Assembly (NCBI RefSeq): GCF_003991425.1
Contig: NZ_CP034346.1
Coordinates: forward strand, 1,339,501 to 1,403,500
Direction: 5' to 3'
From: Paenibacillus lutimineralis
Lineage (GTDB): Bacteria; Bacillota; Bacilli; Paenibacillales; Paenibacillaceae
Length of the DNA: 64,000 bases
Positions 27,430 to 44,297 of the stretch are shown one piece after another. Both the position numbers and the translations under genes were made by a program. Position 1 is the first letter of the stretch, and each line of letters starts with the position of its first letter. The notes below the pieces were generated by a model. That model ran no database searches. It was not told where the DNA came from and saw nothing but the letters and a program-made list of their open reading frames with translations.

Positions 27430-29187
27430 TTGTTTAGACTCGTTGCATTTTTAAAACCTTACAAGAAGGAAAGTATTCTAGGCCCTTTCTTTAAGCTGGT
27501 GGAGGCAATTCTAGAGCTGCTTCTACCGACGATTGTGGCCCTGATTGTGAACCATGGGATTGGTAGAAATGATATCGCTTATGTATGGAAGATGGGCGGC
27601 TTAATGGTCGTCATGTCGATACTGGGCTTCGGCAGCTCGCTGATCTGTCAATATTATGCGGCCCGGGCATCGCAGGGCTTCGGGACAACGCTGCGTAATA
27701 CGCTGTTCCGGCATGTCTCGACGCTGTCTTATGCTGAGATTGATCGCTTCGGGACACCATCACTGATCAACCGTATCACAAATGATGTCAATCAGCTGCA
27801 GATCGCGGTAGCGATGCTGATTCGGCTCGTGATTCGTGCCCCGTTCATTTGCATTGGGGCAATCATCATGTCGATGCTGCTTGATTTTAGACTGTCGCTT
27901 GTTCTGCTTGCGGCAACACCCGTGTTTGCAATTATTCTATATTTGATTATTACCAAGACCGCACCTATGTATCGGTTATACCAGAAGAAGCTGGACAGAA
28001 TCGCACTAGTATTGAGCGAGAATCTGACGGGGGTTCGCGTCATCCGTGCGTTCGCGAAGAGACAGGCTGAGAAGGCGAGATTCCGCGAGGCTTCCGACGA
28101 CATTACGGCCACTGCGATCCGAGTAGGGCGTGTGTCTGCGCTGCTTAGTCCGGTAACAACGGTTGTTGTCAACGGGGCGATTATCGCTATTCTATGGATT
28201 GGCGGTATTCACATTAATACGGGGACATTATCTTCTGGCGAGATCATCGCCTTTATTAACTATGTCACGCAAATTTTGCTCGCTTTGATCGTCGTGTCGA
28301 ACCTGATTATTATTTTTACCAAGGCAGCGTCCTCGGCAGCACGGATCAATGAGGTGCTCGATACCGTTCCTTCCATTGCGGACCCTGCGCCAGAAGAGCG
28401 AAAACAGTCTGCAGCGAAAATAGAAGATAAAAAGGACGGTCCCGCTGTTGTATTTGATCATGTCACCTTCGGATATAGCGCAACGGGTGATCCGGCTCTG
28501 ACAGATATATCGGTGGAGATAAGACGTGGCGAGACCGTGGGCATTATCGGTGGTACTGGTTCAGGCAAATCTACATTTGTGAACCTGATTCCGAGATTCT
28601 ATGACACTACCTCTGGGCAAATCCTCATCAATGGGATCGACGTAAGGGATTATAGCCTGCATGAGCTACGCGGCAAGATCGGGATCGTTCCGCAGAAGGC
28701 ACTGCTCTTCACAGGGACGATTGACGATAACATCCGTTGGGGCAATGAATTAGCTGCGGATGAAGAGGTTAAGCGGGCAGCTGTCATTGCACAGGCCGAT
28801 GAATTCATATCGAAAATGCCAGAAGGCTATAACACTCCGGTGTCCAGGGGCGGACTTAATCTGTCGGGTGGGCAGAAGCAGCGCTTAACGATCGCCCGGG
28901 CAATTGTCGCCAGTCCCGATATTCTCATCCTTGATGATTCTTCGAGCGCACTCGATTTTGCCACAGATGCGGCGTTAAGAAGGTCGATCCAGGAGAACAG
29001 CCAGGGAATGACGGTATTCCTCGTCTCGCAGCGGGTTAGCACCGTGCAGCAGGCTGATAAGATCATCGTCATCGAAGATGGACGGATCGCCGGCATCGGC
29101 ACAGATGCTGAACTCAAGCGCGATTGCAGTGTCTATCAAGAGATTTGCCGCTCACAGTTCTCTAATGAGGAGGCAGGACAACAATGA
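27430..29187 (+). CDS. ABC exporter half-transporter with degenerate ATP site
   Basis: The protein has 585 residues: six transmembrane helices over residues 1-300, then an ATPase domain with Walker A GGTGSGKST, signature LSGGQKQ and Walker B ILILDDSSSALD. The catalytic Glu after the Walker B Asp is Asp here, as in the degenerate site of heterodimeric exporters such as BmrC or TM287. The start is TTG with GGGGA seven bases upstream. The gene overlaps its partner at 29184 by four bases (ATGA), so they are translated together and form a heterodimer. The substrate is probably a drug or lipid-like compound. The divergent LysR gene is the likely regulator. Confidence 0.85.
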   Translation: MFRLVAFLKPYKKESILGPFFKLVEAILELLLPTIVALIVNHGIGRNDIAYVWKMGGLMVVMSILGFGSSLICQYYAARASQGFGTTLRNTLFRHVSTLSYAEIDRFGTPSLINRITNDVNQLQIAVAMLIRLVIRAPFICIGAIIMSMLLDFRLSLVLLAATPVFAIILYLIITKTAPMYRLYQKKLDRIALVLSENLTGVRVIRAFAKRQAEKARFREASDDITATAIRVGRVSALLSPVTTVVVNGAIIAILWIGGIHINTGTLSSGEIIAFINYVTQILLALIVVSNLIIIFTKAASSAARINEVLDTVPSIADPAPEERKQSAAKIEDKKDGPAVVFDHVTFGYSATGDPALTDISVEIRRGETVGIIGGTGSGKSTFVNLIPRFYDTTSGQILINGIDVRDYSLHELRGKIGIVPQKALLFTGTIDDNIRWGNELAADEEVKRAAVIAQADEFISKMPEGYNTPVSRGGLNLSGGQKQRLTIARAIVASPDILILDDSSSALDFATDAALRRSIQENSQGMTVFLVSQRVSTVQQADKIIVIEDGRIAGIGTDAELKRDCSVYQEICRSQFSNEEAGQQ

Positions 29188-30929
29188 ACATGAAGCAAAC
29201 ATGGGGAAGACTGCTGACTTATACAGGAAAATATAAAAGCTATACAATCTGGGCCTTCATTAGTGCGATTATTAGCGTAGCTTCCAGCTTGATCGGGCCG
29301 CTTATGATCGGGATTACGATCGACCATATGGTCGGCAAGGGTGCCGTTGAGTTCGCGGACATATTCAGACTGCTTACGCAGCTTGGTCTGGTGTATCTCA
29401 TCGGAAGCTTGTTCGGTTGGCTGTTGACATATCTTACGAATCGGCTTGCTTATCAAACGGTTAATGATCTGCGCAGCGAGATGTTCGACAGGCTGAATGT
29501 TCTACCGCTGAAATATCATGATAATCATCCGCAAGGGGACAGCATCAGCCGGTTCGTCAACGATATGGATGCCATATCGGACGGGTTGCTGCAAGGCTTC
29601 TCCACACTCTTAACCGGCGTTGTTACAATCATCGGAGCGATCGCGCTCATGCTGTATACGAATCCACTCATGACCATCGTCGTGCTGTTATCTGCACCAG
29701 CGGCCTTCTTCGTAGCGCGGTTCATCACGATGCGCTCCCAACAGCTATTTCGTGATCAGGCCCGTATATTGGGTGGGCTAAATGGTTATGTCGAGGAGAT
29801 GATCGGCGGGCAGAAGGTGGTTCAGGCCTTCCGTTATGAAGACCACTCTTTTGCGGAGTTCACAGCGCGAAATGATGAATTACATCACACCGGGGTAAAA
29901 TCACAATTTGTCAGCTCCCTGTCTAATCCATCTACCCGCTTGGTGAACAATGTGACCTTCTCAATCATCGCGTTAATTGGGAGTATTATGGTCATCATGT
30001 CCAGAATATCGGTGGGGGGACTGTCCAGCTTCCTGATCTATGCCAATCTGTTCGCTAAGCCGTTCAACGAGATCACTGGCGTAATTACGCAGTTGCAATC
30101 AGCTACGGCCTCGGCGCAGCGTGTCTTCCAGGTGCTTGATGAACCGGCGGAGTCACCGGATGCTGATGATGCTGTTCATATCCCGGCGAAGCAGGGGACG
30201 ATTACGTTCCGGCATGTGAAGTTCGCTTACCAGCCTGAACGGCCCCTTATTACTGATTTGAACCTCGTTGTCGAACCAGGCACGCGGGTCGCGATCGTGG
30301 GACAGACCGGTGCCGGCAAGACAACGCTGGTGAATCTGTTAATGCGATTCTATGATGTTGATGCTGGCGAGATTGCGATAGACGGCATTAACATTAACGA
30401 TATGACCCGTGACAGCTTACGCCATACCTTCGGGATGGTGCTACAGGATACCTGGCTGTTCGGCGGGACGATCCGCGACAATATCGCCTACGGGAAGCCG
30501 AATGCTAGCCAGGAGGAGGTTATTGCTGCCGCTAAGGCGGCTAACGCCCACAGCTTCATCAAGCGGCTGCCGCAGGGCTATGATACGGTGATCAGCGGCT
30601 CCGGCGACAGCCTGTCCCAGGGACAGAAGCAGCTCCTGACGATCGCTCGGGTTATGCTGGTTGATCCGCCGATGCTGATTCTTGATGAAGCGACGAGCAG
30701 CATCGATACGCTGACGGAGATTCGTATCCAGGCGGCGTTCCTGAAGATGATGGAAGGCCGAACGAGCTTCGTCATCGCCCACCGTCTGTCGACGATCCGT
30801 GAGGCCGATATGATCCTCTACATGAAGGACGGGGATGTCATCGAGAGCGGCAGTCATGAACAGCTGCTGGAGAGCGGCGGGTACTACGCCAATCTGTACA
30901 ACAGCCAGTTCGCGGCAGTGAACGGGTAG
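29184..30929 (+). CDS. ABC exporter half-transporter with consensus ATP site
   Basis: The protein has 581 residues: six transmembrane helices followed by an ATPase domain with Walker A GQTGAGKTT, signature LSQGQKQ and Walker B MLILDEATSSID with the catalytic Glu intact. It is the catalytically competent partner of the preceding protein, whose equivalent residue is Asp. The asymmetry supports a heterodimer of the BmrCD, YheIH or TM287/288 class, commonly multidrug exporters. A strong terminator follows the gene. Substrate specificity cannot be read from the sequence. Confidence 0.85.
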   Translation: MNMKQTWGRLLTYTGKYKSYTIWAFISAIISVASSLIGPLMIGITIDHMVGKGAVEFADIFRLLTQLGLVYLIGSLFGWLLTYLTNRLAYQTVNDLRSEMFDRLNVLPLKYHDNHPQGDSISRFVNDMDAISDGLLQGFSTLLTGVVTIIGAIALMLYTNPLMTIVVLLSAPAAFFVARFITMRSQQLFRDQARILGGLNGYVEEMIGGQKVVQAFRYEDHSFAEFTARNDELHHTGVKSQFVSSLSNPSTRLVNNVTFSIIALIGSIMVIMSRISVGGLSSFLIYANLFAKPFNEITGVITQLQSATASAQRVFQVLDEPAESPDADDAVHIPAKQGTITFRHVKFAYQPERPLITDLNLVVEPGTRVAIVGQTGAGKTTLVNLLMRFYDVDAGEIAIDGININDMTRDSLRHTFGMVLQDTWLFGGTIRDNIAYGKPNASQEEVIAAAKAANAHSFIKRLPQGYDTVISGSGDSLSQGQKQLLTIARVMLVDPPMLILDEATSSIDTLTEIRIQAAFLKMMEGRTSFVIAHRLSTIREADMILYMKDGDVIESGSHEQLLESGGYYANLYNSQFAAVNG

Positions 30930-30996: not shown

Positions 30997-31126
30997 CTAA
31001 GAGTTCTATCCTATGGAGTGTGAGAGTTCATGAAGATCATGTGGCATGGTAACGACCGCTCATATAGAACGGTATAGATGCGGTGTGGATATACCAGTTC
31101 GCATTTGGAAGGCCCAGCGGACAGTA

Positions 31127-31312
31127 AATTCCTGCAAAAATACAGTTTTTATCAGGAATAGAGATCGTAAATCGGGAATTCCTGCAAAAATGCAGTTTTT
31201 TTCTCGAAATAGACTCGATTACGCCGGATTAGGCGTAAAAGCCTGCATATTTGCAGGCTTTTTGCTAAATCAAGTGATTTGTATCTTAAAAAGCTGCATA
31301 TTTGCAGTTTTC
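31127..31312. repeat. Palindrome array A (four CTGCA-N4-TGCAG-type units)
   Basis: Four short palindromes with cores starting at 31132, 31182, 31243 and 31294 are spaced 50, 61 and 51 bases. The first two are of the form TTCCTGCAAAAATGCAGTTT. The last two have TATTT centres and A/T flanks in the opposite sense. The array lies between convergent genes after a terminator. Copies with the same spacing lie at 37125 and, inverted, at 40711. Confidence 0.8.
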
Positions 31313-31401
31313 GTTACTTGCCCTGCTAAGTACGAGTGCGATTAAGTTCTACTAAGTTCTTGATCTCTAATATGTTCAAGTTCTTAATCACTAAATATGT
31401 G

Positions 31402-31448
31402 CAAAGCCGTTGTTCAACTGCGATATGCAGTGAGAGCAGCGGCTTTGC
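31402..31448 (-). terminator. Hairpin after lipoprotein gene
   Basis: AAAGCCGTTGTTC pairs with GAGCAGCGGCTTT. It lies past the 3' end of the minus-strand lipoprotein gene. The T run is poor. A related hairpin follows lgt at 40010. Confidence 0.45.
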
Positions 31449-31485
31449 TGTGTTCACACTCGATTTTCAGGAGTGTATGCTACCC

Positions 31486-31917
31486 TTACCCTTCTATAAG
31501 CGCCAAATATCGGTGCTGCTTACCGTCCAACTCAATGATGAGAACTTCTCCTCCTTGCCGGGGCGAAGGAGCATAAATTTCAGTTCCGACAGTCAGCTTC
31601 GTAGACATGCCATTAATGAAGCTGTCTTGCTTATCATATACAGCTGTAATCTCTCCGACTTTGCTCTGATCCTCGAACTTTAATTCCTGAACCCAACTCG
31701 AGGGATCAGCTTTGATGAAGATAAGATCCCCGAACATGAAGATGTCGGCGTCAGGATTGAGCTTGAGCACCTCCTCACCAGTGGGATTGTGAGTTGTACT
31801 CACCTGTACTTGGTCCCCATCAGTCCCACCTCCAAGCACGGAACATGCCGTTAACACATACCCCGCAATCACAATAGTGAGCATGCAGATAGCTAGTGAC
31901 CAGTATCTTCGTTTCAT
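31486..31917 (-). CDS. Small lipoprotein
   Basis: The protein has 143 residues. The signal peptide ends in the lipobox LTAC near residue 25 (MLTIVIAGYVLTAC), so the mature protein is lipid-anchored on the outer face of the membrane after Lgt modification. The body contains DADIFMFGDLIFIKADPSSW and ends YLALIEG, a pattern seen in DUF3221-type lipoproteins. The ATG at 31917 is preferred because AGAGG lies seven bases upstream, while the earlier in-frame ATG overlaps that site. No function is known. It stands alone, divergent from the LacI gene. Confidence 0.65.
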   Translation of the reverse strand: MKRRYWSLAICMLTIVIAGYVLTACSVLGGGTDGDQVQVSTTHNPTGEEVLKLNPDADIFMFGDLIFIKADPSSWVQELKFEDQSKVGEITAVYDKQDSFINGMSTKLTVGTEIYAPSPRQGGEVLIIELDGKQHRYLALIEG

Positions 31918-32106
31918 AACTAATCCTCTCATAGTTCTCCTCCCCCCGCATAAAGCGACTTAAGCTTGAACATATAAGCTGCACGAGAATGGTTGTATGG
32001 CTGACTCATCTTAGTAAAATGTTCTATCATTTCCCGCTTCTGTCTGCTATTTATTCTTATTCCAGATGACGAATGAATCGGCTCCGATGTTGCATACATA
32101 TGTAAC

Positions 32107-32120
32107 TGAAAAGCTTTTCG
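32107..32120. promoter_or_regulatory. LacI-type operator, site 1
   Basis: TGAAAAGCTTTTCG, a near-perfect palindrome 19 bases before the LacI start. Similar sites lie at 33244 and 34822 in front of the transporter genes. Autoregulation is inferred. Confidence 0.5.
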
Positions 32121-32138
32121 GAAAAGAGGTCGTGACCA

Positions 32139-33143
32139 TTGAAGACTACGATTCATGATGTTGCCAGGAGGGCGGGGGTTTCGATCAGTACCGTATCCCG
32201 GGTGATGAATACGCCGCAGATGGTAGGCAAGAGTAAGCGGCTGCGCGTGCTTGAAGCGATCGAGGCGTTGAAGTACCAGCCGAACGCTTTTGCCAGGGGA
32301 CTCATTTACAAGAAGTCGTTCACCCTCGGCCTGCTCATTCCCGACATTGAGAGTATGTATTATGCAGGGATGATCCGCGGCATGCAGGATGCCTGTATTA
32401 AACTTGGCTACAGCCTGATGATCTGCAACACGGACAGGAATAAGGAACGTCTGCTGGCCTACATCGATACCTTCCATGAGAAGCAGGTAGACGGGATCGT
32501 CTTCGCTAGCGACGCCATGCTGCCGGAATATCACCGCAAATTAACAGACTACAAAATCCCGACAGTGCTTGTCTCTACCCATTCGGAGGAATATAGCCTC
32601 CCCTGCATCGAGATCGATGATGAGGCGGCGGCTTATGACGCCGTTAAATTCCTGATCGGACTGGGCCACCGGGATATCGGGATGATCGGCTTCCACCATG
32701 ACAACTCCATATCCGGACCGCCGAGGTACGCCGGGTTCATCCGTGCAATTACTGAATTCGGTCTTCCGGAAAATACAAGCAAAGTAAGCTACGCTAATTA
32801 CCGCTTCAATCACGCCTATGCTGCGACACATGATCTGCTAATAAGTTACCCTGAGTTAACCGCGCTGTTCTGCGTGTCGGATGAGTTCGCCATGGGGGCG
32901 ATCTCCTATCTGAAGGATCGGAACATACTCGTTCCCGGGCAGATCTCGATCATCGGATTCGATAATGTACGCATGGCCGGCATGTTCATTCCCAAGCTGA
33001 CGACCGTCGCCCAGCCGATCTATCAGCTCGGTTATCGTGCAGCTGAGAAGCTGCATGAGCTGATTACCACCGGAAGAGTAGAGATCCGAAGAGAGATTTT
33101 AGAGCATCAGCTGATGATTCGCGAATCTACACGAGAGAGATAA
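32139..33143 (+). CDS. LacI-family transcriptional regulator
   Basis: The protein has 334 residues. The N-terminal helix-turn-helix and hinge are canonical (TIHDVARRAGVSISTVSRVM, then LKYQPNAFARGL). The periplasmic-binding-protein-like effector domain follows from residue 60 (FTLGLLIPDIESMYYAGMIR) to the C-terminal dimer region. The start is TTG with AAGAGGT eight bases upstream. It is followed 195 bases later by a sugar ABC importer, so the sugar or a derivative is the likely effector. Candidate operators lie before this gene and before the binding protein and permease genes. Confidence 0.9.
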   Translation: MKTTIHDVARRAGVSISTVSRVMNTPQMVGKSKRLRVLEAIEALKYQPNAFARGLIYKKSFTLGLLIPDIESMYYAGMIRGMQDACIKLGYSLMICNTDRNKERLLAYIDTFHEKQVDGIVFASDAMLPEYHRKLTDYKIPTVLVSTHSEEYSLPCIEIDDEAAAYDAVKFLIGLGHRDIGMIGFHHDNSISGPPRYAGFIRAITEFGLPENTSKVSYANYRFNHAYAATHDLLISYPELTALFCVSDEFAMGAISYLKDRNILVPGQISIIGFDNVRMAGMFIPKLTTVAQPIYQLGYRAAEKLHELITTGRVEIRREILEHQLMIRESTRER

Positions 33144-33243
33144 TGAGGCATGAGCAGTATATTACAGGTTCAGGCATATAACCGACTGATAGCGCATACA
33201 AAGATGAATAAACCAATCGATATGATTTTATCCGGTAAATTTC

Positions 33244-33257
33244 TGAAAAGCTTTGCA
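33244..33257. promoter_or_regulatory. LacI-type operator, site 2
   Basis: TGAAAAGCTTTGCA, 82 bases before the binding-protein gene, shares its first 11 bases with site 1. Confidence 0.45.
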
Positions 33258-33338
33258 AAGGGGGGATGCGTACTGCCACAGGCTGGCAAACAGATGCATG
33301 ACAGAGCTTAATAACGGTTAGAGGGGATGTATGAAAAT

Positions 33339-34778
33339 ATGAGAAAATCTCTCACACACAAAGTCTCGCTGCTGCTCATCTTATGCCTATCCTTCGCAAT
33401 GCTGTTAAGTGCCTGCGGGGGAGGCGGTAATGAGGGGAAGACGGCGAATCAGCCCGGTGATAATCAGAAGAATGAGGGGAATCAGGGGAAATCTCCCGAC
33501 AACGCGAATACGAACGGCAATCAAGGCTCAGATACACAAGGCTCGCCGCTTGAATTAGCGCTGAAGGGCGAATATAAGGGAACGAAAGTAACAATGTTCG
33601 GCCCCTTCGTAGATGCTGACCAAGTCAAGTTCGAGAATAGCATTAAGGACTTTGAGGAGAAGACGGGCATCGATATTCAATATGAAGGCTCCAAGGAGTT
33701 CGAGGCAACGATCAATATCCGTGTAGATGGCGGGAATGCGCCTGATATTGCTGATTTCCCACAGCCGGGCTTGCTCGCTTCAATTGCCAAGACGGGCAAG
33801 GTCATTGATCTGAACAATATTCTTGATATCAATAAATTGAAGTCTAATTACAATCAGAGCTGGCTTGATATGGCGACCATGCCGGGTAAGGACGGCGATA
33901 TTATGACCGGGGTATGGAACCGCAGTAATGTGAAGAGCCTGGTCTGGTATCCGAAGAAGCAATTTGAAGATGCCGGATATCAAATTCCGGAGACCTGGGA
34001 TGAGTTGATGGCGTTAACGGAACAGATTGCCAAGGACGGCGATGCGCCTTGGACGATCGGGATTGAGAGCGGCGCGGCGACAGGCTGGACGGCCACGGAT
34101 TGGGTCGAGGATATCATGCTCCGTACGACTACTCCAGAGAATTACGACAAATGGGTAAAGGGCGAGCTTGCTTTCACCTCGCCGGAAGTGAAGCATGCCG
34201 TGGAGTTGATGTCGCAGATCTGGATGAACAAAGATTATGTATACGGTGGCACTAAGTCGATCGTTACGACAGCCTTTGGTGATGCCACTGCCCCGATGTT
34301 CGACAATCCGCCGAAGGCATGGCTGCACCGTCAGGCCAACTTTATCACAAGCTTCTTCCCGGAGACAGCTAAGATCGACGAGGATGTAGCCTGGTTCTAT
34401 TTCCCGCCGATTGATGAGCAGTACGGCAAGCCGGTGCTGGTAGCAGGGGATATTTATTCGATGTTCAACGACCGTCCAGAGGTTCGCGCGGTCATGGAGT
34501 TCTTCACGACAGGCGAATCGATCAAGACCTGGGTACAGTCCGGCGGGGTTATTGCACCGATGAATGATGCATCGCTGGATTGGTATACAACGGATTCCGA
34601 CCGCCGGATGGCGAAGCTCGTTCAAGAGGCTTCCACACTGCGCTTCGACGGCTCCGATCTGATGCCGGGAAGCGTTGGAGCGGGTACGTTCTGGAAAGGC
34701 ATGACCGACTATGTCAGCGGTGCGGCGAATCTGGATGATGCGTTGAAGCAGATCCAGGCAGGCTGGGACAACAAATAA
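33339..34778 (+). CDS. Sugar ABC importer, solute-binding lipoprotein (AglE-like)
   Basis: The protein has 479 residues. The lipobox LSAC lies near residue 26, and the mature Cys is followed by a Gly/Asn/Gln-rich linker. The body is an extracellular solute-binding protein of the family 1 type (VTMFGPFVDADQVKFENSIK, then NAPDIADFPQPGLLASIAKT) and resembles alpha-glucoside binding proteins. The ATG at 33339 gives a normal signal peptide. An ATG four codons earlier abuts the G run. Two permease genes follow. No ATPase gene is present, so a shared MsmX-type ATPase elsewhere in the genome is expected. Confidence 0.8.
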   Translation: MRKSLTHKVSLLLILCLSFAMLLSACGGGGNEGKTANQPGDNQKNEGNQGKSPDNANTNGNQGSDTQGSPLELALKGEYKGTKVTMFGPFVDADQVKFENSIKDFEEKTGIDIQYEGSKEFEATINIRVDGGNAPDIADFPQPGLLASIAKTGKVIDLNNILDINKLKSNYNQSWLDMATMPGKDGDIMTGVWNRSNVKSLVWYPKKQFEDAGYQIPETWDELMALTEQIAKDGDAPWTIGIESGAATGWTATDWVEDIMLRTTTPENYDKWVKGELAFTSPEVKHAVELMSQIWMNKDYVYGGTKSIVTTAFGDATAPMFDNPPKAWLHRQANFITSFFPETAKIDEDVAWFYFPPIDEQYGKPVLVAGDIYSMFNDRPEVRAVMEFFTTGESIKTWVQSGGVIAPMNDASLDWYTTDSDRRMAKLVQEASTLRFDGSDLMPGSVGAGTFWKGMTDYVSGAANLDDALKQIQAGWDNK

Positions 34779-34880
34779 TCCGCTTTTGATCACCCCGCGG
34801 CAGTCCCTAGCTTCATCCAGCTGAAACGTTTTGAAAAAACGCACATCGGAAGCATAAGCTTCGGTGCTGAAAACCGGATT
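34778..34880. repeat. Partial copy of dispersed intergenic repeat
   Basis: CCGCTTTTGATCAC, AGTCCCTAGCTTCATCCA and GGTGCTGA...AACCG occur here in the same order as in the complete element at 43681-43851, but with the middle deleted and both ends missing. Confidence 0.6.
34822..34835. promoter_or_regulatory. LacI/CcpA-type operator, site 3
   Basis: TGAAACGTTTTGAA, 69 bases before the first permease gene, fits the general LacI/CcpA half-site pattern around a central CG. Confidence 0.4.
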
Positions 34881-34903
34881 TATTAAAAAAAGGAGGCGGC
34901 CGT

Positions 34904-35986
34904 ATGCGGGAAGTGATTAAATCCAAAATCAGCATAGGGGCAGTTTTGCTATCGCTTGCTGTGCTTGTGGTAAACACGGCAGTCCATGGGGCAATCTTCA
35001 TCTTTTTTCGCAACACCGCTCTAAATCCGCTTATTACGGCCGTTCTCGCTGTTCTATGGGGAGTGCTGGGCGTCTATTTTCTCTACTATACGTTGAACTG
35101 GGCAGCGGAGAAGTATCCTGATCATCTTCGCGGCAAAATATTACCCTATATCTTCATCGGCCCCGCGGCTATATTGCTCGGCTGGCTGTTGATCATTCCG
35201 GCGCTGCGTACCTTCTACTTAAGCTTCTTCAACGCCTCCTCCGATCGATTCATCGGCTTCGGCAATTATGCGGCCATCTTCAGTGATCGGCTGCTGGGCG
35301 TTGCGCTGCGCAACAATCTGCTCTGGGTATTCATCGGCACACTGGCCTGTGTATCGCTGGGACTGTTAATCGCCATATTGGCGGATCGGAGCAGCTATGA
35401 GCGAATCGCCAAGGCGATCATCTTCATGCCAATGGCGATCTCGTTCGTCGCCGCAGGGGTCATCTGGAAGTTCATCTATTACTATCAGCCGGGTGATGAA
35501 CAGATCGGCTTGCTCAACGCGATAGTCATGTTCTTCGGCGGCGAACCGCAGGCATGGACGAGTATGCTCCAGCCCTGGAACAATCTGTTCCTGATCGTCA
35601 TTCTGATCTGGATGCAGACCGGGTTCGCGATGGTAATCTTCTCGGCGGCGATCAAGGGGGTTCCCGATGATATTCTGGAGGCAGCCCGCGTCGATGGCGC
35701 CGGTGAGATCCGCATATTCGGCCGCATCATTATTCCGTATATTTCGGCGACAATATTGACGGTAACGACGACGATTATTGTATTTACGCTTAAAATATTC
35801 GATGTCGTCATGGTCATGACCGGAGGTCAGTATGATACCGAGGTGGTAGCTACCCAATTTTACCGCCAATTCTTCATGTATCGTAATTTCGGGTATGGAT
35901 CGACGCTGGCCATTGTCCTGCTGATTGCGATCATTCCTGTCATTATTATTAATTTGCGGCAGTTCCGCAGACAGGGGGGATGGTAA
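34904..35986 (+). CDS. Sugar ABC importer permease (AglF/MalF-like)
   Basis: The protein has 360 residues with about eight membrane segments. The EAA loop that docks the ATPase is seen as ILEAARVDGAGEIRIFGRII near residues 260-285. The two extra N-terminal membrane segments and the IGFGNYAAIFSD motif match the alpha-glucoside/maltose permease family. AGGAGG lies nine bases before the ATG. The second permease starts immediately after the stop. With the binding protein upstream it forms an importer, probably for an alpha-glucoside. The substrate assignment is inferred from family resemblance only. Confidence 0.85.
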   Translation: MREVIKSKISIGAVLLSLAVLVVNTAVHGAIFIFFRNTALNPLITAVLAVLWGVLGVYFLYYTLNWAAEKYPDHLRGKILPYIFIGPAAILLGWLLIIPALRTFYLSFFNASSDRFIGFGNYAAIFSDRLLGVALRNNLLWVFIGTLACVSLGLLIAILADRSSYERIAKAIIFMPMAISFVAAGVIWKFIYYYQPGDEQIGLLNAIVMFFGGEPQAWTSMLQPWNNLFLIVILIWMQTGFAMVIFSAAIKGVPDDILEAARVDGAGEIRIFGRIIIPYISATILTVTTTIIVFTLKIFDVVMVMTGGQYDTEVVATQFYRQFFMYRNFGYGSTLAIVLLIAIIPVIIINLRQFRRQGGW

Positions 35987-37078
35987 ATGGCCGCAAAATC
36001 CAGACGAAGGGGCAGCAAGACTGTCGTCAACATTGTACTCGGTATCATCTGTCTGATCTGGCTGATTCCTACGCTCGGACTGTTCATCTCTTCCTTCCGT
36101 CCGGCGGCGGATATACTGCAGAGCGGATGGTGGAAGGTATTCCCCCATCAAGGCTGGCAGACGAAGGATACACTGACCTTACCGAAGGAGACGGATCTGC
36201 GCGAGCCGATTCAGGTCGATGGCAGGACTTTCAGTGATGAGCAGTTGAAGGCGGGCGTTGTTGTTGACGGTCAGCGACTGCAATGGGAGAACCGCAGGGC
36301 GAGAACGCTGAATGTGCAGGAACGCGGCTGGGAGGCACTGCCGAATTTCACACTGGACAATTACAGAAATGTGCTGTCCGGTAAGGAATATAAGCTCAAG
36401 CAGGCTGACGGCAGCGAGACGATCCAGAAGGGAACCGGCCTGTCTCAAGCCTTCTTGAATACGCTGACGATTGCCGTTCCAGCGACAGTGATCCCTGTGC
36501 TGATTGCCTCCTTTGCCGCCTATGCCTTCGCCTGGTTGCGTTTCCCAGGCAGGAAGACATTATTCGTCGCCATCATCGCACTGCTCGTTATTCCACTGCA
36601 GGTGGCGCTGATTCCGGTACTGAAGGATTACACGGCGCTCGGCCTGAACGGGAGCTATCTGGGAATCTGGCTAGCCCACACGGCCTTTGGACTGCCGCTC
36701 GTGACTTACTTTATGTACAATTTCATTAGTCAGCTCCCGCGGGATTTGTTCGAATCGGCCTTCATAGATGGGGCCAGTCATTTTACGATCTTCAGTCGAT
36801 TGATCCTTCCGTTATCGGTGCCGGCCCTGGCTTCGATCGGGATCTTCCAATTCCTGTGGGTGTGGAACGACTATCTTGTCTCGCTTATCTTCATCGGCAA
36901 TCAGCCAAGCGTACAGGTGATATCCATGAAGATCGCCGATCTGGTCGGTTCTCGCGGCAGCGACTGGCATCTCTTAACCTCGGCTGCCTTTATCTCCATG
37001 CTGATGCCGCTCACCATCTTCTTCCTGCTGCAGAAGTATTTCGTCAGAGGGCTGATGGGCGGTTCGGTCAAAGGCTAA
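35987..37078 (+). CDS. Sugar ABC importer permease (AglG/MalG-like)
   Basis: The protein has 363 residues. After the first membrane segment comes a soluble insert of about 110 residues (WWKVFPHQGWQTKDTLTLPK onwards to LPNFTLDNYRNVL), a feature of AglG-type permeases. Five more membrane segments follow. The EAA loop is FESAFIDGASHFTIFSRLIL, near residues 255-275. The ATG directly follows the upstream stop codon, with GGGGGAT as ribosome site. The operon ends here without an ATPase gene. Palindrome array B starts 47 bases after the stop. Confidence 0.85.
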   Translation: MAAKSRRRGSKTVVNIVLGIICLIWLIPTLGLFISSFRPAADILQSGWWKVFPHQGWQTKDTLTLPKETDLREPIQVDGRTFSDEQLKAGVVVDGQRLQWENRRARTLNVQERGWEALPNFTLDNYRNVLSGKEYKLKQADGSETIQKGTGLSQAFLNTLTIAVPATVIPVLIASFAAYAFAWLRFPGRKTLFVAIIALLVIPLQVALIPVLKDYTALGLNGSYLGIWLAHTAFGLPLVTYFMYNFISQLPRDLFESAFIDGASHFTIFSRLILPLSVPALASIGIFQFLWVWNDYLVSLIFIGNQPSVQVISMKIADLVGSRGSDWHLLTSAAFISMLMPLTIFFLLQKYFVRGLMGGSVKG

Positions 37079-37124
37079 GTGTGGATAGGAACGAGAACGA
37101 TGCTACATTGCTTCATACATCATA

Positions 37125-37312
37125 AAAGCCTGCAATTATGCAGGAATTTCGTAAACAGATCGACCTGAAATAGTGAATTCCTGCGAAAATGCAGTTTTTT
37201 TCTCCACATTAGCTTGATTTCAAGAAAAAAGGAGGAGAAGCCTGCATATTTGCAGGTTTTTCCTAATAACTAGTGATTTGATGCGATAAAGCCTGTATAT
37301 TTGCAGTTTTGA
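37125..37312. repeat. Palindrome array B
   Basis: Four palindromes with cores starting at 37130, 37181, 37242 and 37293 are spaced 51, 61 and 51 bases. They are in the same order and orientation as array A. Spacer remnants such as AGTGATTTG are shared with A. Confidence 0.8.
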
Positions 37313-37512
37313 GTTTGTAGGGGGAATGGCAGGTATACATATCGTTATGTACAACTAAGGAGCTGCGTCCGTATCAATGTGAGGTGGCTTCTTTGCTGTT
37401 GTTTAAGTCTCAATATCGGATGCTGTTAAGCGACTGAAGTGCAGAAGGGATGTATGATGATAATTGCAATAAGATGCATTTCAATGCGAGAGAAAGTTTT
37501 ATATAATAATAA

Positions 37513-37526
37513 TGCAATCGGTTGCA
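37513..37526. promoter_or_regulatory. CRE/LacI-type operator
   Basis: TGCAATCGGTTGCA matches the CcpA cre pattern TGNAANCGNTNNCA at every fixed position and is palindromic. It lies just behind an A+T-rich TATAATAAT stretch, so it could block a promoter there. The next gene starts 118 bases later. Confidence 0.45.
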
Positions 37527-37644
37527 CAAAGAGAGCGTGTATAGTAACCTGCTGACTCATCTGGAGTTCAGGCTATTCAGCTCGTACGCTTGGCGGTTGC
37601 TTTTGATTGTGAGTGGATGAACCAACAAGAATGGAGGAGAGGCT

Positions 37645-38454
37645 ATGTTTGATTTACATACACATCACGAACGATGTGGACATGCTGCGGGGACCATCGA
37701 GCAGTATATCGAAAGCGCAATCTCTAAAGGTATACAGGTGCTTGGTATTACCGATCATTCTCCGTATTTTTTTGCGGATGAGGATCATCCCTTTCCGGGC
37801 TTGGCTATGGCCAAGAGTGAATTTGCTCGCTATGTGGAAGAGGCTGTACAGTTAAAAGAGAAATATGGGGACCGGATCGAGCTGTTAATCGGGGTCGAAT
37901 CGGATATTTTTAAGGAGCATATGGTATTGTACAACCAGGTATACAGAGGCTTTCCGCTGGATTATGTGATTGGTTCGATCCATTTCACCTCTCCATCCCT
38001 TATTCTCCAAGGACTGGATTGGAGCCAGGCTTCTGAGGAAGAGCGGATGGCGGAATTTAGAAGATTCATAGAGCTGATGCAGCACGCTGTACAGAGCGAT
38101 TGGGTGAACATCATCGGGCATATGGACCGGGTTCATCGAGGGAATCCGTCGTTCGAAGATTTATATGCCCCCTATATCGCACCTTTGCTCAAGACGATGG
38201 CTGGGAGAGGGGCCGTGCTGGAAGTGAATACGGGTGGATTCCGGAAGAGCGCGAAGGACTGGTATCCTTCGATAAATATCATCGAGCAGGCCTACCATTA
38301 TGGCGTAGATGTTACCTTTGGCTCGGATGCGCATGATCCGCTGCGGGTCGGAGATGAATGGGAAGAGGTTCGTCAGACATTAGAGCAGATTGGTTATAAG
38401 CGATGGGTTATTTTCAGACAGCGTAGGCCTTATTACTTGGACATTCATTCCTAA
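37645..38454 (+). CDS. PHP-family histidinol-phosphatase-like phosphatase
   Basis: The protein has 269 residues. The PHP metal motifs are visible: DLHTHHERCGHA at the N-terminus, GITDHSPYF near residue 34, the Glu of GVESDIFKEH, GSIHF, the His-Asp pair IIGHMDRVHR, and GSDAHDP near the C-terminus. This matches the HisJ/HisK type that dephosphorylates L-histidinol phosphate with a trinuclear metal site. No other his gene is nearby, so the physiological substrate is not certain. GGAGGAGAGG precedes the ATG. It is transcribed alone. Confidence 0.85.
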   Translation: MFDLHTHHERCGHAAGTIEQYIESAISKGIQVLGITDHSPYFFADEDHPFPGLAMAKSEFARYVEEAVQLKEKYGDRIELLIGVESDIFKEHMVLYNQVYRGFPLDYVIGSIHFTSPSLILQGLDWSQASEEERMAEFRRFIELMQHAVQSDWVNIIGHMDRVHRGNPSFEDLYAPYIAPLLKTMAGRGAVLEVNTGGFRKSAKDWYPSINIIEQAYHYGVDVTFGSDAHDPLRVGDEWEEVRQTLEQIGYKRWVIFRQRRPYYLDIHS

Positions 38455-38584
38455 GATATCCCTTTCGACACCATATTTTGAAGCGTCGCCCGACGGTATA
38501 AGAGGCGGCGTTTCTCATTTATAAGACCCGTGGGGAACATGCTCTAATAGGGCAACAATCGCCGTAGAAGTCATGACCTTACAC

Positions 38585-38637
38585 TTGACAGAGTTTCGCT
38601 CTGTAATGCACAATATTAACAGAGTCGGACTCTGTTA
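38585..38637 (+). promoter_or_regulatory. TetR promoter with two palindromic operators
   Basis: A TTGACA box (38585) overlaps ACAGAG-TTTCG-CTCTGT (38588-38604). A second, perfect 9+9 palindrome TAACAGAGT-CGG-ACTCTGTTA (38617-38637) follows 31 bases centre to centre, close to three helical turns. Both lie just before the TetR start and indicate autorepression. Confidence 0.7.
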
Positions 38638-38649
38638 GGAGAGTGCTAT

Positions 38650-39264
38650 ATGGCCAGGGTTGTTAAGAAGCCGGAAGAGAGAAAAGAAGAATTACTGGAT
38701 ATTGCAATCAAGCTGTTTATGGAGAAGGGCTACATCAATACTTCAGTCAAAGATATTTACACACAGGCCAACGGTTCGTTTGGCATGTTCTATCACCACT
38801 TTGCTTCGAAGGAAGAAATATTTGAAGCTGCCATGGCCAAGTATACCGACTTGTTCGTGTCCGGCATTTCTGAGATTTTACAAGATAAGAGGCTTCCCTA
38901 CCCCGAGCGCTACAAGCGCGTGCTCATTCATTGGATGGGATTAATGAACGGTCGCGACAAAGTACGAGGGAGCAGGCATGATGTTGAGGTGTTCCGCGTA
39001 TTGTCCGGTAAAATGCTGAGCGGTGCTATCGATCCGGTGAGGCGTTATTTGGACGAGGGAATCGAGCAGGGATTTATAAAGACAGATGATAGCCATAGCT
39101 CTGCTATATTTATAGTCTATGGAACTTTCGGATTGCTGAATGAAGAGAGAAACCACATAGGCAGTAATGACAACGCCCTACATATTTTTGCTGAGGTATC
39201 CAAACGAATAACGGCGATGCTGGATGCTGGTGAGAATACTTTTAATTTTGCAGAGGAGGGATAG
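38650..39264 (+). CDS. TetR-family transcriptional regulator
   Basis: The protein has 204 residues. The N-terminal TetR helix-turn-helix is clear (KEELLDIAIKLFMEKGYINT, then VKDIYTQANGSFGMFYHHFA with the usual FYHHF ending). The ligand-binding domain is not assigned. AGGAGAG lies before the ATG and the two operators above lie within 60 bases upstream. The lgt-like gene starts one base after the stop, so TetR and Lgt form one operon, and the regulator probably controls its own expression and that of Lgt. Confidence 0.85.
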   Translation: MARVVKKPEERKEELLDIAIKLFMEKGYINTSVKDIYTQANGSFGMFYHHFASKEEIFEAAMAKYTDLFVSGISEILQDKRLPYPERYKRVLIHWMGLMNGRDKVRGSRHDVEVFRVLSGKMLSGAIDPVRRYLDEGIEQGFIKTDDSHSSAIFIVYGTFGLLNEERNHIGSNDNALHIFAEVSKRITAMLDAGENTFNFAEEG

Positions 39265-39265
39265 T

Positions 39266-40030
39266 GTGTACAATGATTTATTTTCAATAGGCCCCTTTAC
39301 GGTTCATGGATACGGGGTGATGATCGCCATTGGTGTCCTGGCTGCTTACATGGTTATGATGAAGCGGGCCAAGCGGCTCAACATCGATAGTAGTCATATT
39401 GATTCGCTAACAGTTTGGGTTCTAGTAGGCGGGGCAATCGGCGCCAAGGTTTTGTTTTGGCTCACTCAGATGGAGAATATCTTGCAAAATCCTAGCCTCT
39501 TGCTGCTGATGATCACAGACGGTTTTGTGGTATACGGAGGGATTATAGGCGGCGTATTAGCCGGATATATCTATTGCCGAAAGAAGCAGATAGGGTTCTT
39601 GAAGTATTTTGATTTGATTATCCCTTCTGTAGCGCTAGCCCAAGGCTTCGGGCGTATTGGTTGCTTTATGGCGGGCTGCTGTTATGGCAGGGAGACAGAT
39701 AGTGCGTTTGGAGTGGTCTTTCCATCCTCCTCTCTTGCCCCAGGTGGCGTAAGGCTGGTCCCCACACAGTTAATTTCAAGCGGCTTGGATTTCCTTCTGT
39801 TTGCGGTACTGGTTCTCTATGCGAAGAGAAAAAAAGCCGACGGTCAGGTAGCAGCACTCTATTTGATCTTATATAGCGGCGGTAGATTTATACTTGAATT
39901 TTTCAGAGGGGATATCATACGTGGAAGTGTCGGTATTCTATCGACCTCGCAATTTATAGCCATTTTCCTGTTCGCAATCGGATGTGGAATGTTCATAGCA
40001 AGGCAATATAAAGCCGCTATACTGCGATAA
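39266..40030 (+). CDS. lgt: Prolipoprotein diacylglyceryl transferase (Lgt)
   Basis: The protein has 254 residues with about seven membrane segments. Lgt features are FTVHGYGVMIAIGVLAAYMV at the N-terminus, the YGGIIGGVLAGY loop, and the signature GRIGCFMAGCCYGRETDSAF near residues 130-150. The C-terminal QLISSGLDF and GRFILEFFRGD match the family. It transfers diacylglycerol from phosphatidylglycerol to the lipobox Cys of prolipoproteins at the membrane. The GTG start at 39266 has AGGAGGG five bases upstream and follows the TetR stop directly. The Cys-rich GCC signature and linkage to TetR suggest a paralogue beside a housekeeping Lgt elsewhere. Confidence 0.8.
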   Translation: MYNDLFSIGPFTVHGYGVMIAIGVLAAYMVMMKRAKRLNIDSSHIDSLTVWVLVGGAIGAKVLFWLTQMENILQNPSLLLLMITDGFVVYGGIIGGVLAGYIYCRKKQIGFLKYFDLIIPSVALAQGFGRIGCFMAGCCYGRETDSAFGVVFPSSSLAPGGVRLVPTQLISSGLDFLLFAVLVLYAKRKKADGQVAALYLILYSGGRFILEFFRGDIIRGSVGILSTSQFIAIFLFAIGCGMFIARQYKAAILR

Positions 40031-40048
40031 GCAGTAATTAGCGGCTTT
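40010..40048 (+). terminator. Hairpin terminator overlapping the lgt stop
   Basis: AAAGCCGCTATACTGC pairs with GCAGTAATTAGCGGCTTT, and the stop codon lies in the loop. It resembles 31402-31448. Confidence 0.6.
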
Positions 40049-40054
40049 GCTGCG

Positions 40055-40524
40055 ATGCTCGTCAGAGCGCTTGATCTTCAAAGGGGAAGCAGTAGTAGTG
40101 GAGATGCTTTGTATAACGATGTGAAGTCCGATGCATGGTATGGAGATGCTATTGCTACGGCTGTCATTATGGACTGGTGCAAGGCTATGCCGATCAAAGC
40201 TTCCGACCGAACGCGCAAATTACCCGGGAGGAAATGTCCGTAATGGGCGCGCGGGCGCTGCGTATACTGCAGAATGGGGTGAAGCAGGGAACGGGCACGG
40301 AAGTGATCCTTGCTACCGGGGAGAGCACGGATCTAGTGTCAGGTTATGCCGACGGTTCACAGCTTCATTCATGGTCTCAGGCAGAGGTGGAGCTAATGCT
40401 CCAGGCAGGCATTATGCAGGGACAGAGCAAAGACAAATTTGCTCCAGCCAGCCGCACGACAAGAGCGGAAGCGGCGGCCATCCTGTCCCGACTGCTTGCA
40501 GCAGTAAAGCTGCTCAATCCTTAA
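40055..40524 (+). pseudogene. Frameshifted S-layer-homology gene fragment
   Basis: One frame reads YNDVKSDAWYGDAIATAV up to about base 40168. The +1 frame then continues as HYGLVQGYADQSFRPNAQIT and on through REEMSVMGARALRIL and a last S-layer-homology half (AEVELMLQAGIMQGQSKDKF to RAEAAAILSRLL). Together they read as the C-terminal end of an S-layer-homology protein split by a frameshift near 40165. Its N-terminal part is absent. The piece abuts the lgt terminator, so the rest was probably lost by deletion. Confidence 0.7.
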
Positions 40525-40577
40525 CTCGGAAATGGAACGGATGAAAGTGCAGAGTTTAGGAGATAGGGGTTAACTAT

Positions 40578-40608
40578 AGAGGGCGCTTATTAGCGTCCTC
40601 TTTCTTTT
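40578..40608 (+). terminator. Rho-independent terminator
   Basis: AGAGGGCGCT pairs with AGCGTCCTCT, then TTCTTTT. It belonged to the decayed S-layer-homology gene. Confidence 0.75.
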
Positions 40609-40710
40609 GAACATACGTATGCGAGATATGCTTCTAGACGGGCAAAGGGGGAGATGTGTTCGATGACGACTCCAATTGATCCTTGACTACGCCTAGTAAG
40701 TTATAAGCAG

Positions 40711-40900
40711 TGAAAAACTGCAAATCTGCAGTTTTTGGTATGTAAAATCGCCTGCATTTATAAAAAGCCTGCAAATCTGCAGGCTTTTAGCGTTATCCGC
40801 TTGAAATCGGGTTAATCCAGCGAAAAAAGCTGCATTATTGCAGGAATTTTCTATTTTCGACTACTATCGTATTCGAAAAACTGCATTTTTGCAGCAATTG
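40711..40900. repeat. Palindrome array C (inverted orientation)
   Basis: Palindrome cores start at 40718, 40769, 40830 and 40881: spacing 51, 61 and 51. Read on the minus strand, the order and flanks match arrays A and B (units ending in GCAGTTTTT first, GCAGGCTTTTT third). Between the array and the ABC-2 gene, 40901-41114 shows nothing else recognisable. Confidence 0.8.
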
Positions 40901-41114
40901 GTTGGCCTGCGCTGCTTGCGGGCTCTCCAGTGTATAGTAATCAGATGCCTAATTAAATCAGCCAAGCATTCAATTCATACATTGTTTCAAAGCCTATAAA
41001 AAACAGTTGCCACCTCTGGAATAATAAGGTATGATGTTTGTCCCTACTGCTGCAAAATGCCCTTGTCTGAAGTGGACGGAACAAGCCGTCAAAAATGCTT
41101 ATCGGAGGTGCTTC

Positions 41115-41891
41115 ATGCTTTATTTTACGTTGGCTGCCAAGGCCTATTCACGCAATTTGCAGTACCGCGGTGCACATATGGTGCACAATCTTGCCAGCGC
41201 GATGTTCGGATTCATCTACGCCAGTATTTGGATCGGGCTCGGCAGGGATAATCCCCTCGGCACTTATGGAACCCACGGCATGATCAGTTACATCTGCTTC
41301 ACGCAGAGCCTGCTGTGGATCACCAGCTTCATCTCGAACGGACTCGGCATTCCGCAAGCCGTGCGGACCGGTCAAATCTCACTGGATCTGATGCGTCCCG
41401 TCCATTTATTCAGCCATATGGCGGCGCGCGAATGGGGGCAAATCGCCTACCAGTTCATTTACAAATCAATCCCTATCTACATGCTGTATCTCATCATTTT
41501 CCCGCTTCACATTCCCAAGAGCAGCTTCACCGTTATGCTTGTTGCAATCAGTATAGTTGGCGCAGCCTACATATCGATTTGCATGAATTATCTGATCGGG
41601 GTAACTGCATTGTGGACGACGGAATCTTCCTGGTTCTACTGGGCGAATCATGCGCTCGTGAATTTACTGGCTGGCTTCTTCATTCCGCTGGAGTGGCTGC
41701 CCTCCTGGTTATCTCAGTTAGCCTGGTTATCGCCATACCCGTATCTTCTCTATATTCCTACGCGCATCTATCTCGGTTATGAACACGGCTCTCATTTATG
41801 GGGGACGCTGCTTTGGTGTGCCTTCTTGACGTTGATCTGCCTGCTGGCGACTAAGGTGCTGCGGCATAAAGTGGAGGTGCAGGGCGGATGA
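41115..41891 (+). CDS. ABC-2 type exporter permease 1
   Basis: The protein has 258 residues with about six membrane segments (ASAMFGFIYASIWIGLG, MLYLIIFPLHIP, ALVNLLAGFFIPLEWLPSWL). The last segment with FFIPLEWLP is typical of ABC-2 family membrane proteins. GGAGGTG lies four bases before the ATG at 41115. The in-frame start 28 codons upstream has no ribosome site and adds a non-membrane Cys-rich stretch. It overlaps the second permease by four bases. With the ATPase at 42709 it forms a three-gene exporter. The substrate is unknown. Confidence 0.75.
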   Translation: MLYFTLAAKAYSRNLQYRGAHMVHNLASAMFGFIYASIWIGLGRDNPLGTYGTHGMISYICFTQSLLWITSFISNGLGIPQAVRTGQISLDLMRPVHLFSHMAAREWGQIAYQFIYKSIPIYMLYLIIFPLHIPKSSFTVMLVAISIVGAAYISICMNYLIGVTALWTTESSWFYWANHALVNLLAGFFIPLEWLPSWLSQLAWLSPYPYLLYIPTRIYLGYEHGSHLWGTLLWCAFLTLICLLATKVLRHKVEVQGG

Positions 41892-43851: not shown

Positions 43852-44078
43852 GTACTATTAGAGCTTGATGAATGAGACCGATTTTGTGTTGCGCGGACCT
43901 GTTGCGCTGCATACAAATATTAAATAGCATGAAACAATGAAATTATTCTCATTGAAAATACATGAAACAAGTCATATACTAAGTATAATGTGATATTCAT
44001 TACAGTTATATCCGCGGCAAAGATTGTAATATGAATTCAGCGGATATTGTAAAATCAAACAATTAAAAATTTGAATAT

Positions 44079-44240
44079 GGATCTTCGGGGTAAGGTGAAA
44101 TTCCTGACCGGCGGTGAATGGTTCGATCAGCACATAGCGATTGAATCACAGCCCGCGACTCGCTGTCTGTCCTGTAGGACGATAGCGACTGATCTGGTGC
44201 AAATCCAGAGCCGACGGTAAAGTCCGGATGGGAGAAGATC
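44079..44240 (+). ncRNA. FMN riboswitch (RFN element)
   Basis: The conserved blocks are all present: GGTAAGGTGAAATTCCTGACC, CGGCGGTGA, AGCCCGCGACTCGC, then GGTGCAAATCCAGAGCCGAC and GGTAAAGTCCGGATGGGAGA. The P1 stem pairs GGATCTTC at the 5' end with GAAGATC at the 3' end. FMN binding is expected to lower expression of the transporter downstream through the attenuator at 44298. Confidence 0.93.
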
Positions 44241-44297
44241 AATCTTAAGTTTGTGCGACAAGGCGATAAGCCTGTCTTTGCACATGCTTATTTGATC

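Follow-up and report, generated by a model that had tools for sequence, protein, structure and literature searches.

A dispersed family of intergenic elements with four palindromes at near-fixed distances in Paenibacillus lutimineralis and related bacteria

Dispersed palindromes such as the repetitive extragenic palindromes (REPs) have been known for decades, with no agreed function. Other small dispersed sequences are the miniature inverted-repeat transposable elements (MITEs), which combine an inverted-repeat layout with a high copy number, and the bcr1 repeat of Bacillus cereus, a short interspersed element with mobile traits. The sites of Noc and SlmA are also dispersed chromosomal palindromes, each of them single, read by a dimer and depleted near the terminus. 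Here we describe an intergenic element made of four palindromes at near-fixed distances, which occurs three times in a stretch of 64,000 nucleotides of the Paenibacillus lutimineralis chromosome (hereafter the window; NCBI RefSeq assembly GCF_003991425.1, contig NZ_CP034346.1, positions 1,339,501 to 1,403,500). An initial annotation of this stretch had reported three arrays of CTGCA-N4-TGCAG-type palindromes and had ascribed their spacing to selection, as for a folded RNA, a protein bound on one DNA face or a replicating small element.

The unit coordinates confirm the three arrays. Array A1 (31126..31313, plus strand; steps between units 50/61/51) lies between the convergent open reading frames (ORFs) 29184-30929 (+) and 31486-31932 (-), and consists of units at 31132..31145 (CTGCAAAAATACAG, with one mismatch to CTGCA-N4-TGCAG), 31182..31195 (CTGCAAAAATGCAG), and 31243..31256 and 31294..31307 (both CTGCATATTTGCAG and both in inverted orientation). 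Array A2 (37124..37312, plus strand; steps 51/61/51) follows ORF 35987-37078 (+) and precedes ORF 37645-38454 (+), its units being located at 37130..37143 (CTGCAATTATGCAG), 37181..37194 (CTGCGAAAATGCAG, one mismatch), 37242..37255 (CTGCATATTTGCAG) and 37293..37306 (CTGTATATTTGCAG, one mismatch). Array A3 (40712..40900, minus strand; steps 51/61/51), between ORFs 40135-40524 (+) and 41031-41891 (+), aligns best to A1 and A2 as its reverse complement, in line with its earlier description as inverted; units 4, 3, 2 and 1 of the family orientation are found at 40718..40731, 40769..40782, 40830..40843 and 40881..40894, respectively. In all, 3 of the 12 units carry one mismatch to the pattern. The window contains 10 exact TGCA-N4-TGCA sites, of which nine are in the arrays and one is isolated; 20 Markov shuffles gave 1.0 on average and 5 at most. 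The only mutual distances of up to 400 bases among the 10 sites are 51, 61, 112 and 163.

These arrays belong to a dispersed family of small intergenic elements in Paenibacillus-type bacteria. In the P. lutimineralis genome itself (G000; one contig, 6.5 Mb), a one-mismatch search, which seems to miss some exact sites, gave at least 353 units against 63 with the reversed pattern, and a sequence-only profile model built from 18 copies of this genome gave 104 matches on both strands (E values up to 1), with 20 places above 60 bits. The strict two-unit pattern was present in 18 of 40 genomes of the genus (G000 included), with 1 to 234 matches each, and the reversed control had none in any of the 40. 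At the order level, 64 of 296 genomes and 22 of 48 genera were positive, with control matches in a few genomes, one of which had as many as true ones. A looser model matched 41 of 59 relatives, many of them just near the threshold. Among the matches listed, the hosts include Paenibacillus faecis, P. oralis, P. alba, P. ferrarius, P. macerans, Fontibacillus panacisegetis and Cohnella; a contig of a Flavobacteriales metagenome-assembled genome (L211) was listed too, but holds no regular three-unit run. The search of this and other Paenibacillus genomes proposed in the initial annotation thus revealed about 20 strong copies in G000 and numerous relatives, neither randomly spaced nor confined to a single locus.

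The unit spans ∼26 bp, with the consensus AAAnnnCTGCA-N4-TGCAGnnnTTT and a slightly asymmetric loop that is purine-rich one way and pyrimidine-rich the other way. All 18 G000 copies fall within 50-52/61-63/50-52, eight of them at exactly 51/61/51, and the first step is 51 in 15 (this set, used for the identities and the 18-copy alignment, does not include 5547061, a copy of three units, or 1422379, a copy found later; the orientation reading used 19 copies). The spacers have drifted, as had been claimed: the units are 81-86% identical, whereas the first spacer, once 8 nt have been removed from either end, shows an identity of 29% versus 26% after shuffling, and the interiors of the second and third show 39 and 40% versus 27-28%. 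A patch singled out earlier, AGTGATTTG, belongs to AGnnGATTT, a weak motif of the third spacer.

The same spacing is found in other genomes. In two 200-kb stretches of P. faecis DSM 23593 (G015) and F. panacisegetis DSM 28129 (G028), read whole but picked as rich carriers, raw scans gave 37 and 18 exact TGCA-N4-TGCA sites, spaced almost only by 50-51, 61-62, 111-113 and 161-164 bases; the exceptions (94, 144, 205 and 256) occur once each in G015 and not in G028. Small variants exist, such as a 52/62/52 array in genome G010 and loci of P. oralis KCOM 3021 (G006) at 51-52/62/52. The loops contain on average 2.83 purines out of four in units 1 and 2 (n = 206) and 1.11 in units 3 and 4 (n = 192), so the layout of the element is two direct units followed by two inverted ones (> > < <). 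The loci used for these loop counts, for the P. oralis spacing and for the pooled covariation discussed below were chosen by the geometry pattern, and they illustrate the geometry rather than test it alone. Many loci in the count of orientation pairs were likewise chosen; with each sequence counted once and 398 pairs with ambiguous loops set aside, 72 of 83 > > pairs lie at 49-52 bases, as do 92 of 137 < < pairs (21 more, from tandem arrays, lie at 102-104), and the 232 > < pairs include 86 at 61-62, 131 at 111-114 and 8 at 50-52. Spacing therefore mostly follows unit orientation, with direct neighbours at 49-52 and convergent ones at 61-62. In two genomes of other genera we found tandem arrays of same-direction units, 15 in G230 (L405:2060-2830) and about nine in G111 (L407:1837-2312), with a step of 51 and a few of 52.

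Many copies are orthologous among G000, Paenibacillus sp. D2_2 (G030) and a further relative (G003), with flanking blocks mostly 80-94% identical. These orthologs bear on a neutral explanation, according to which the elements are ancient repeats in which the palindromes have survived by chance and the spacing has been preserved by the rarity of indels, bacterial indels being rarer than substitutions. In seven uninterrupted G030 orthologs, the core differs from G000 at 12 of 224 positions (5.4%) and the spacers at 166 of 586 (28%; Fisher p 1.4e-14), the C/G next to the core at 3 of 56, the A/T flank at 31 of 324 and the loop at 19 of 112. Taken singly, five of these copies show the core-spacer contrast at <0.05 and two show no significant difference, which is a point for neutral descent, as is the fact that the spans do vary by a few bases (0, 1, -1, 0, -4, 1, 0). 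However, the adjacent unalignable intergenic DNA changed in length by 0-145 bases, a contrast that is partly a selection effect, as the flank lengths are by construction those of non-aligning parts. The divergence over all copies, the near-random first-spacer interior at fixed length and the existence of a second sequence family with the same layout (see below) also make neutral descent hard to hold, and we consider it very improbable. The selection on spacing claimed in the initial annotation is instead well supported by the ortholog spans and by the second family.

In the case of G003, with seven orthologs of which four aligned only partly, core and spacer differ at 30 of 174 and 108 of 490 positions (p 0.19), and the core has changed more than in G030 (p 2e-4) although the spacers have diverged less. 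This set, like that of G030, excludes orthologs interrupted by insertion sequences (ISs), the copy at 5547061 and other partial copies, so that the most decayed G003 parts are not counted; parts of the G003 copies are too changed to align. When the A3 copy is left out, the G003 core (18 of 142) is below the spacers (92 of 406; p 0.01), so some constraint remains, and above the G030 core (p 0.02). At the three loci common to G030 and G003 the core differences are 7/96 and 10/79 (p 0.31). Strict two-unit pairs number 2 in G003, 12 in G030 and 20 in G000, and the best model score is 78 bits in G003 versus 120 bits in G030. These sequence comparisons make it likely, although they do not prove it, that constraint is partly relaxed in G003, as would follow if the factor reading the palindromes had been lost. 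Regarding the window arrays, the A1 ortholog is present in G030 and missing in G003, and the A3 orthologs are decayed in G003 (L345) and interrupted by an IS in G030. In G003 orthologs such as L345, the palindromes are altered, many by transitions, and the spacers persist, which might reflect relaxed selection or a mutational bias at palindromes.

In G000, the weak matches of the profile model proved to be palindromes of another kind, roughly AATAgTTGYN6RCAaCTATT, arranged at 51/61/50 or 50-51/61/51. This second family has the core TGY-N6-RCA with flanks ATAG/CTAT and a spacing that is mostly 51/61/50; its places on contig C1 of G000 are 289653, 2784847, 3582360, 5381879, 5767928, 5858573, 5906611, 5100371, 3010648 and 3884947 (L416-L421, L423, L424, L426 and L427). 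A 400-kb scan of G000 gave 20 units against 0-1 in five shuffles, 18 of them in five clusters (51/61/50 in three, 61/48 and 50/61) and two elsewhere; as this stretch was picked for its weak matches and the pattern was drawn from some of the five clusters, which were known beforehand, the scan shows that stray units are rare and is not an independent discovery of the layout. The window and the G015 and G028 stretches contain one such unit each, which is the chance level. When the spacing was left free, the arrangement 50-51/61/50-51 was recovered at 11 of the 19 weak places fetched, although the model that found them favours the family spacing; a separate reading for the second family allowed the family spacing only. 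That two families of different sequence share one layout in G000 strongly suggests that distance is a selected trait. A sequence-free scan for further palindrome types with this geometry, which was strict and insensitive, found none.

We propose, with a probability of roughly 0.47, that each element serves as a chromosomal site at which a putative dimeric, sequence-specific DNA-binding protein docks in four copies. Each ∼26-bp unit would bind one dimer and, with two direct and two inverted units, direct neighbours being 51 bp and convergent ones 61 bp apart, a functional centre located ∼5 bp inward of the dyad would place the four centres on the same face of the DNA at even intervals of ∼51 bp, close to five helical turns. 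Together, the four dimers would form a single intergenic nucleoprotein complex, located downstream of a gene more frequently than upstream of one, and its purpose may be chromosome organisation or insulation near transcription ends. Of the three mechanisms named initially, a protein on one DNA face is the one that fits best, even though the protein itself was not found. More tentatively, and with a probability of little more than one in three, the elements could represent a previously undescribed class, a four-dimer lattice with five-turn phasing in which geometry and not sequence is conserved, read by paralogous proteins (at least two specificities in one genome), dispersed along the chromosomes of Paenibacillus, Fontibacillus, Cohnella and relatives, and maintained by selection wherever the protein is present.

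The arrays could alternatively act as structured RNA or as clustered bidirectional intrinsic terminators, with hairpins bearing A and T tails at gene 3' ends. In fact, they fold far better than shuffles (z -6.3, -9.2 and -6.6), and of the 276 nearest ORFs, 138 on either side, 170 have the 3' end facing the element (p 1.4e-4, which is too small because loci of one genome are partly counted twice). In a simple ORF-based gene call, 9 of the 18 G000 copies lie between convergent genes, eight between codirectional ones and one between divergent ones, A1 being re-read as convergent because the ORF that covers it is spurious. Among the 75 elements placed, 8 are within an ORF of this call, which at least for A1 is a spurious one. 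Six of the 14 terminator-like sites found between 29000 and 43000 are within arrays, but these 14 are not above the 11.2 of shuffled sequence (sd 3.4), and terminators do not need the fixed 51/61 distances. Moreover, stem-pair complementarity in the 18-copy alignment is 80.5% versus 80.0% in shuffles, with no covariation. The search for compensatory stem changes suggested in the initial annotation gave hardly any within genomes: flanking positions in G015, G028, G000 and G035 are mostly free of covariation, the exceptions being position 3 of the inner units (G015 and G000) and position 6 of the outer units (G000), and the outer units of P. faecis are mostly mismatched beside the core (7/84 paired). 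Several distal positions do covary symmetrically when species are pooled, as is expected for a stem and also for a dimer site changing specificity. With stem pairing within genomes near the shuffle level, the folded RNA considered initially is disfavoured, and we regard an RNA or terminator role as improbable.

Other data concern the mobility of the elements. In G030, two IS3-type elements, whose ORFs carry HTH_Tnp_1 and rve domains, are inserted in the N4 loops: IS-A at five places (L330:17000-18410, L360, L362, L363 and L365), where the 4-bp duplication is the loop in all four read on both sides, and IS-B at three (L359, L361 and L368), with a 3-bp duplication in both of the places read on both sides. 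IS-A occupies the loop of the G030 ortholog of A3 unit 2. Half-element matches 1.25-1.4 kb apart in G030 were considered as marks of an autonomous parent element, and those read were IS3-type insertions inside palindromes. In 19 P. faecis copies, the frequency of the commonest base is 0.71-0.99 between about -20 and +180 relative to the first unit, in the spacers as well, and falls beyond about -40 and +200; this similarity is a sign of fairly recent amplification. The elements could therefore be a selfish repeat of the type of REPs and bacterial interspersed mosaic elements (BIMEs) or of MITEs, that is, non-autonomous, with two transposase-binding palindromes at each end, spread in trans and with a geometry set by the needs of the enzyme. 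Consistent with this, two-unit matches range from 0 to 234 within the genus, and the unit pairs are inverted about the element centre with loops complementary from left to right, which amounts to the terminal inverted repeats of a MITE. The insertions in the loops also recall REP palindromes, which an excerpt of PMC1525189 gives as known targets of IS1397, ISKpn1 and others.

However, in fixed copies with orthologs the core and the span are maintained by selection in place, which a purely selfish element would leave unexplained. The Y1 transposase PF01797 has 0 matches in G000, is absent from the carriers G030 and G010 and is frequent in G008 and G017, which are negative for the strict pattern; it occurs in 20 of the 40 genus genomes with no evident relation to element copy number (judged without formal correlation), and we rejected a link to the REP-associated tyrosine transposases (RAYTs) and REPINs. 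No parent element or copy with its own transposase was seen, no systematic search having been made, and phages, plasmids and IMG/VR gave no match to the element (these record sets may omit the own genome), so a plasmid, phage or virus origin was also rejected. All in all, a selfish repeat is a possible but rather unlikely explanation. The replicating small element of the initial annotation is probably part of the history, given the similar P. faecis copies, and its purely selfish form is what selection in place argues against; a four-site phased binding array may thus have a mobile past as well.

IS200-type Y1 transposase genes were observed a few hundred bases from an element at L397, L398 and L399 (two places in G015 and one in G031); these three hold an array among ten regions fetched for Y1 proximity (L397-L404, L410 and L411), and they were chosen for nearness. 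The sole empty locus read, that of A1 in G003, lacks window positions 31020-31427, which is wider than the element. In G028, L182 and L183 look by eye like one element present twice, on separate contigs, with flanks in common and the orientation reversed, perhaps as part of a larger duplication.

Several observations weigh against the docking-site proposal. The strict pattern is missing from 22 of the 40 sampled genomes of the genus, so the function would be dispensable, and ISs are tolerated in several G030 copies. No telling gene family recurs beside the elements, only general ones (the largest, ABC ATPases, at 11 loci), so that a recurrent neighbour gene was rejected as the binder and the neighbour survey gave no candidate binding protein. 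At 10.5 bp per turn, 51 and 61 bp correspond to 4.86 and 5.81 turns, and phasing on one face needs ∼10.2. The relaxation contrast in G003 is fragile, as 12 of the 30 core differences come from the A3 copy alone, and a hairpin could also give the covariation of pooled species. Finally, divergent pairs should be 41 bp apart under the lattice model, and none was found at that distance: the 11 divergent pairs observed lie at 50-51 (nine), 59 and 62, perhaps because their loops were mis-scored.

With respect to chromosomal position, 15 of the 20 strong G000 copies lie in the origin half (p 0.04), which is suggestive of depletion near the terminus. In G006, the first contig (7,574,443 bases) being taken as one circle, 37 of 61 places do so (p 0.12) with no clear terminus gap, and such a depletion was not retained. 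The ORF adjoining A2 (37645-38454) looks by eye like a PHP-type hydrolase, and neither this ORF nor the array is present at the corresponding place in G030. An Rfam scan of the window gave an FMN riboswitch (RF00050) at 44077-44243 as the sole match above the gathering score, and the arrays match no Rfam family.

The initial annotation knew of no described family with this design, and among the papers listed first in searches of one open-access library we found no earlier description. The word Paenibacillus is absent from the main text of a REP survey (PMC12306157) and of a paper on stem-loop families (PMC2267715), and an excerpt of PMC9202436 names standard repeat programs only. The signs of function are unusually strong here, with a near-fixed geometry, a core and span kept in place, an orientation rule and two families sharing one layout, and this family makes the question of function testable. 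If the protein proposal is true, a new system of chromosome organisation or insulation in Gram-positive bacteria would follow from it.

Compared with the systems described so far, the elements resemble Noc and SlmA sites in being scattered palindromes, putatively read by dimers, but they form four-site arrays and show no clear terminus gap in G006. They share with bcr1 the general habit of a short interspersed element of a Bacilli group with mobile traits, and with MITEs the small size, inverted repeats and high copy number, and differ from the latter in that they are constrained in place and no parent IS was found (without a systematic search). REPINs, paired REPs moved by a RAYT according to an excerpt of PMC3116915, are also short, symmetric and intergenic, with inverted palindromes and a copy number that varies between relatives, whereas the element described here has four sites, is conserved in place and has no Y1 transposase in G000. 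The likeness is closest to REPs and BIMEs as presented in excerpts of PMC1525189 and PMC2817692, that is, extragenic palindromes scattered over the genome in tens to hundreds of copies, with a composite arrangement and a lineage-specific sequence, and, according to the former, targets of IS3-family insertion sequences, which hit the loops here in G030. However, BIME units alternate in a mosaic, whereas ours keep a near-fixed 51/61/51 > > < < arrangement (or, in G230 and G111, tandem direct arrays), and they lack a conserved 5' GTAG head (GTAG/GTGG heads are tabulated for REPs in the excerpt of PMC2817692). The elements are thus REP/BIME-like in habit, but of the features tested they show neither the alternating orientation nor the GTAG head nor the link to a RAYT, and they are further distinguished by two sequence families that share one layout.

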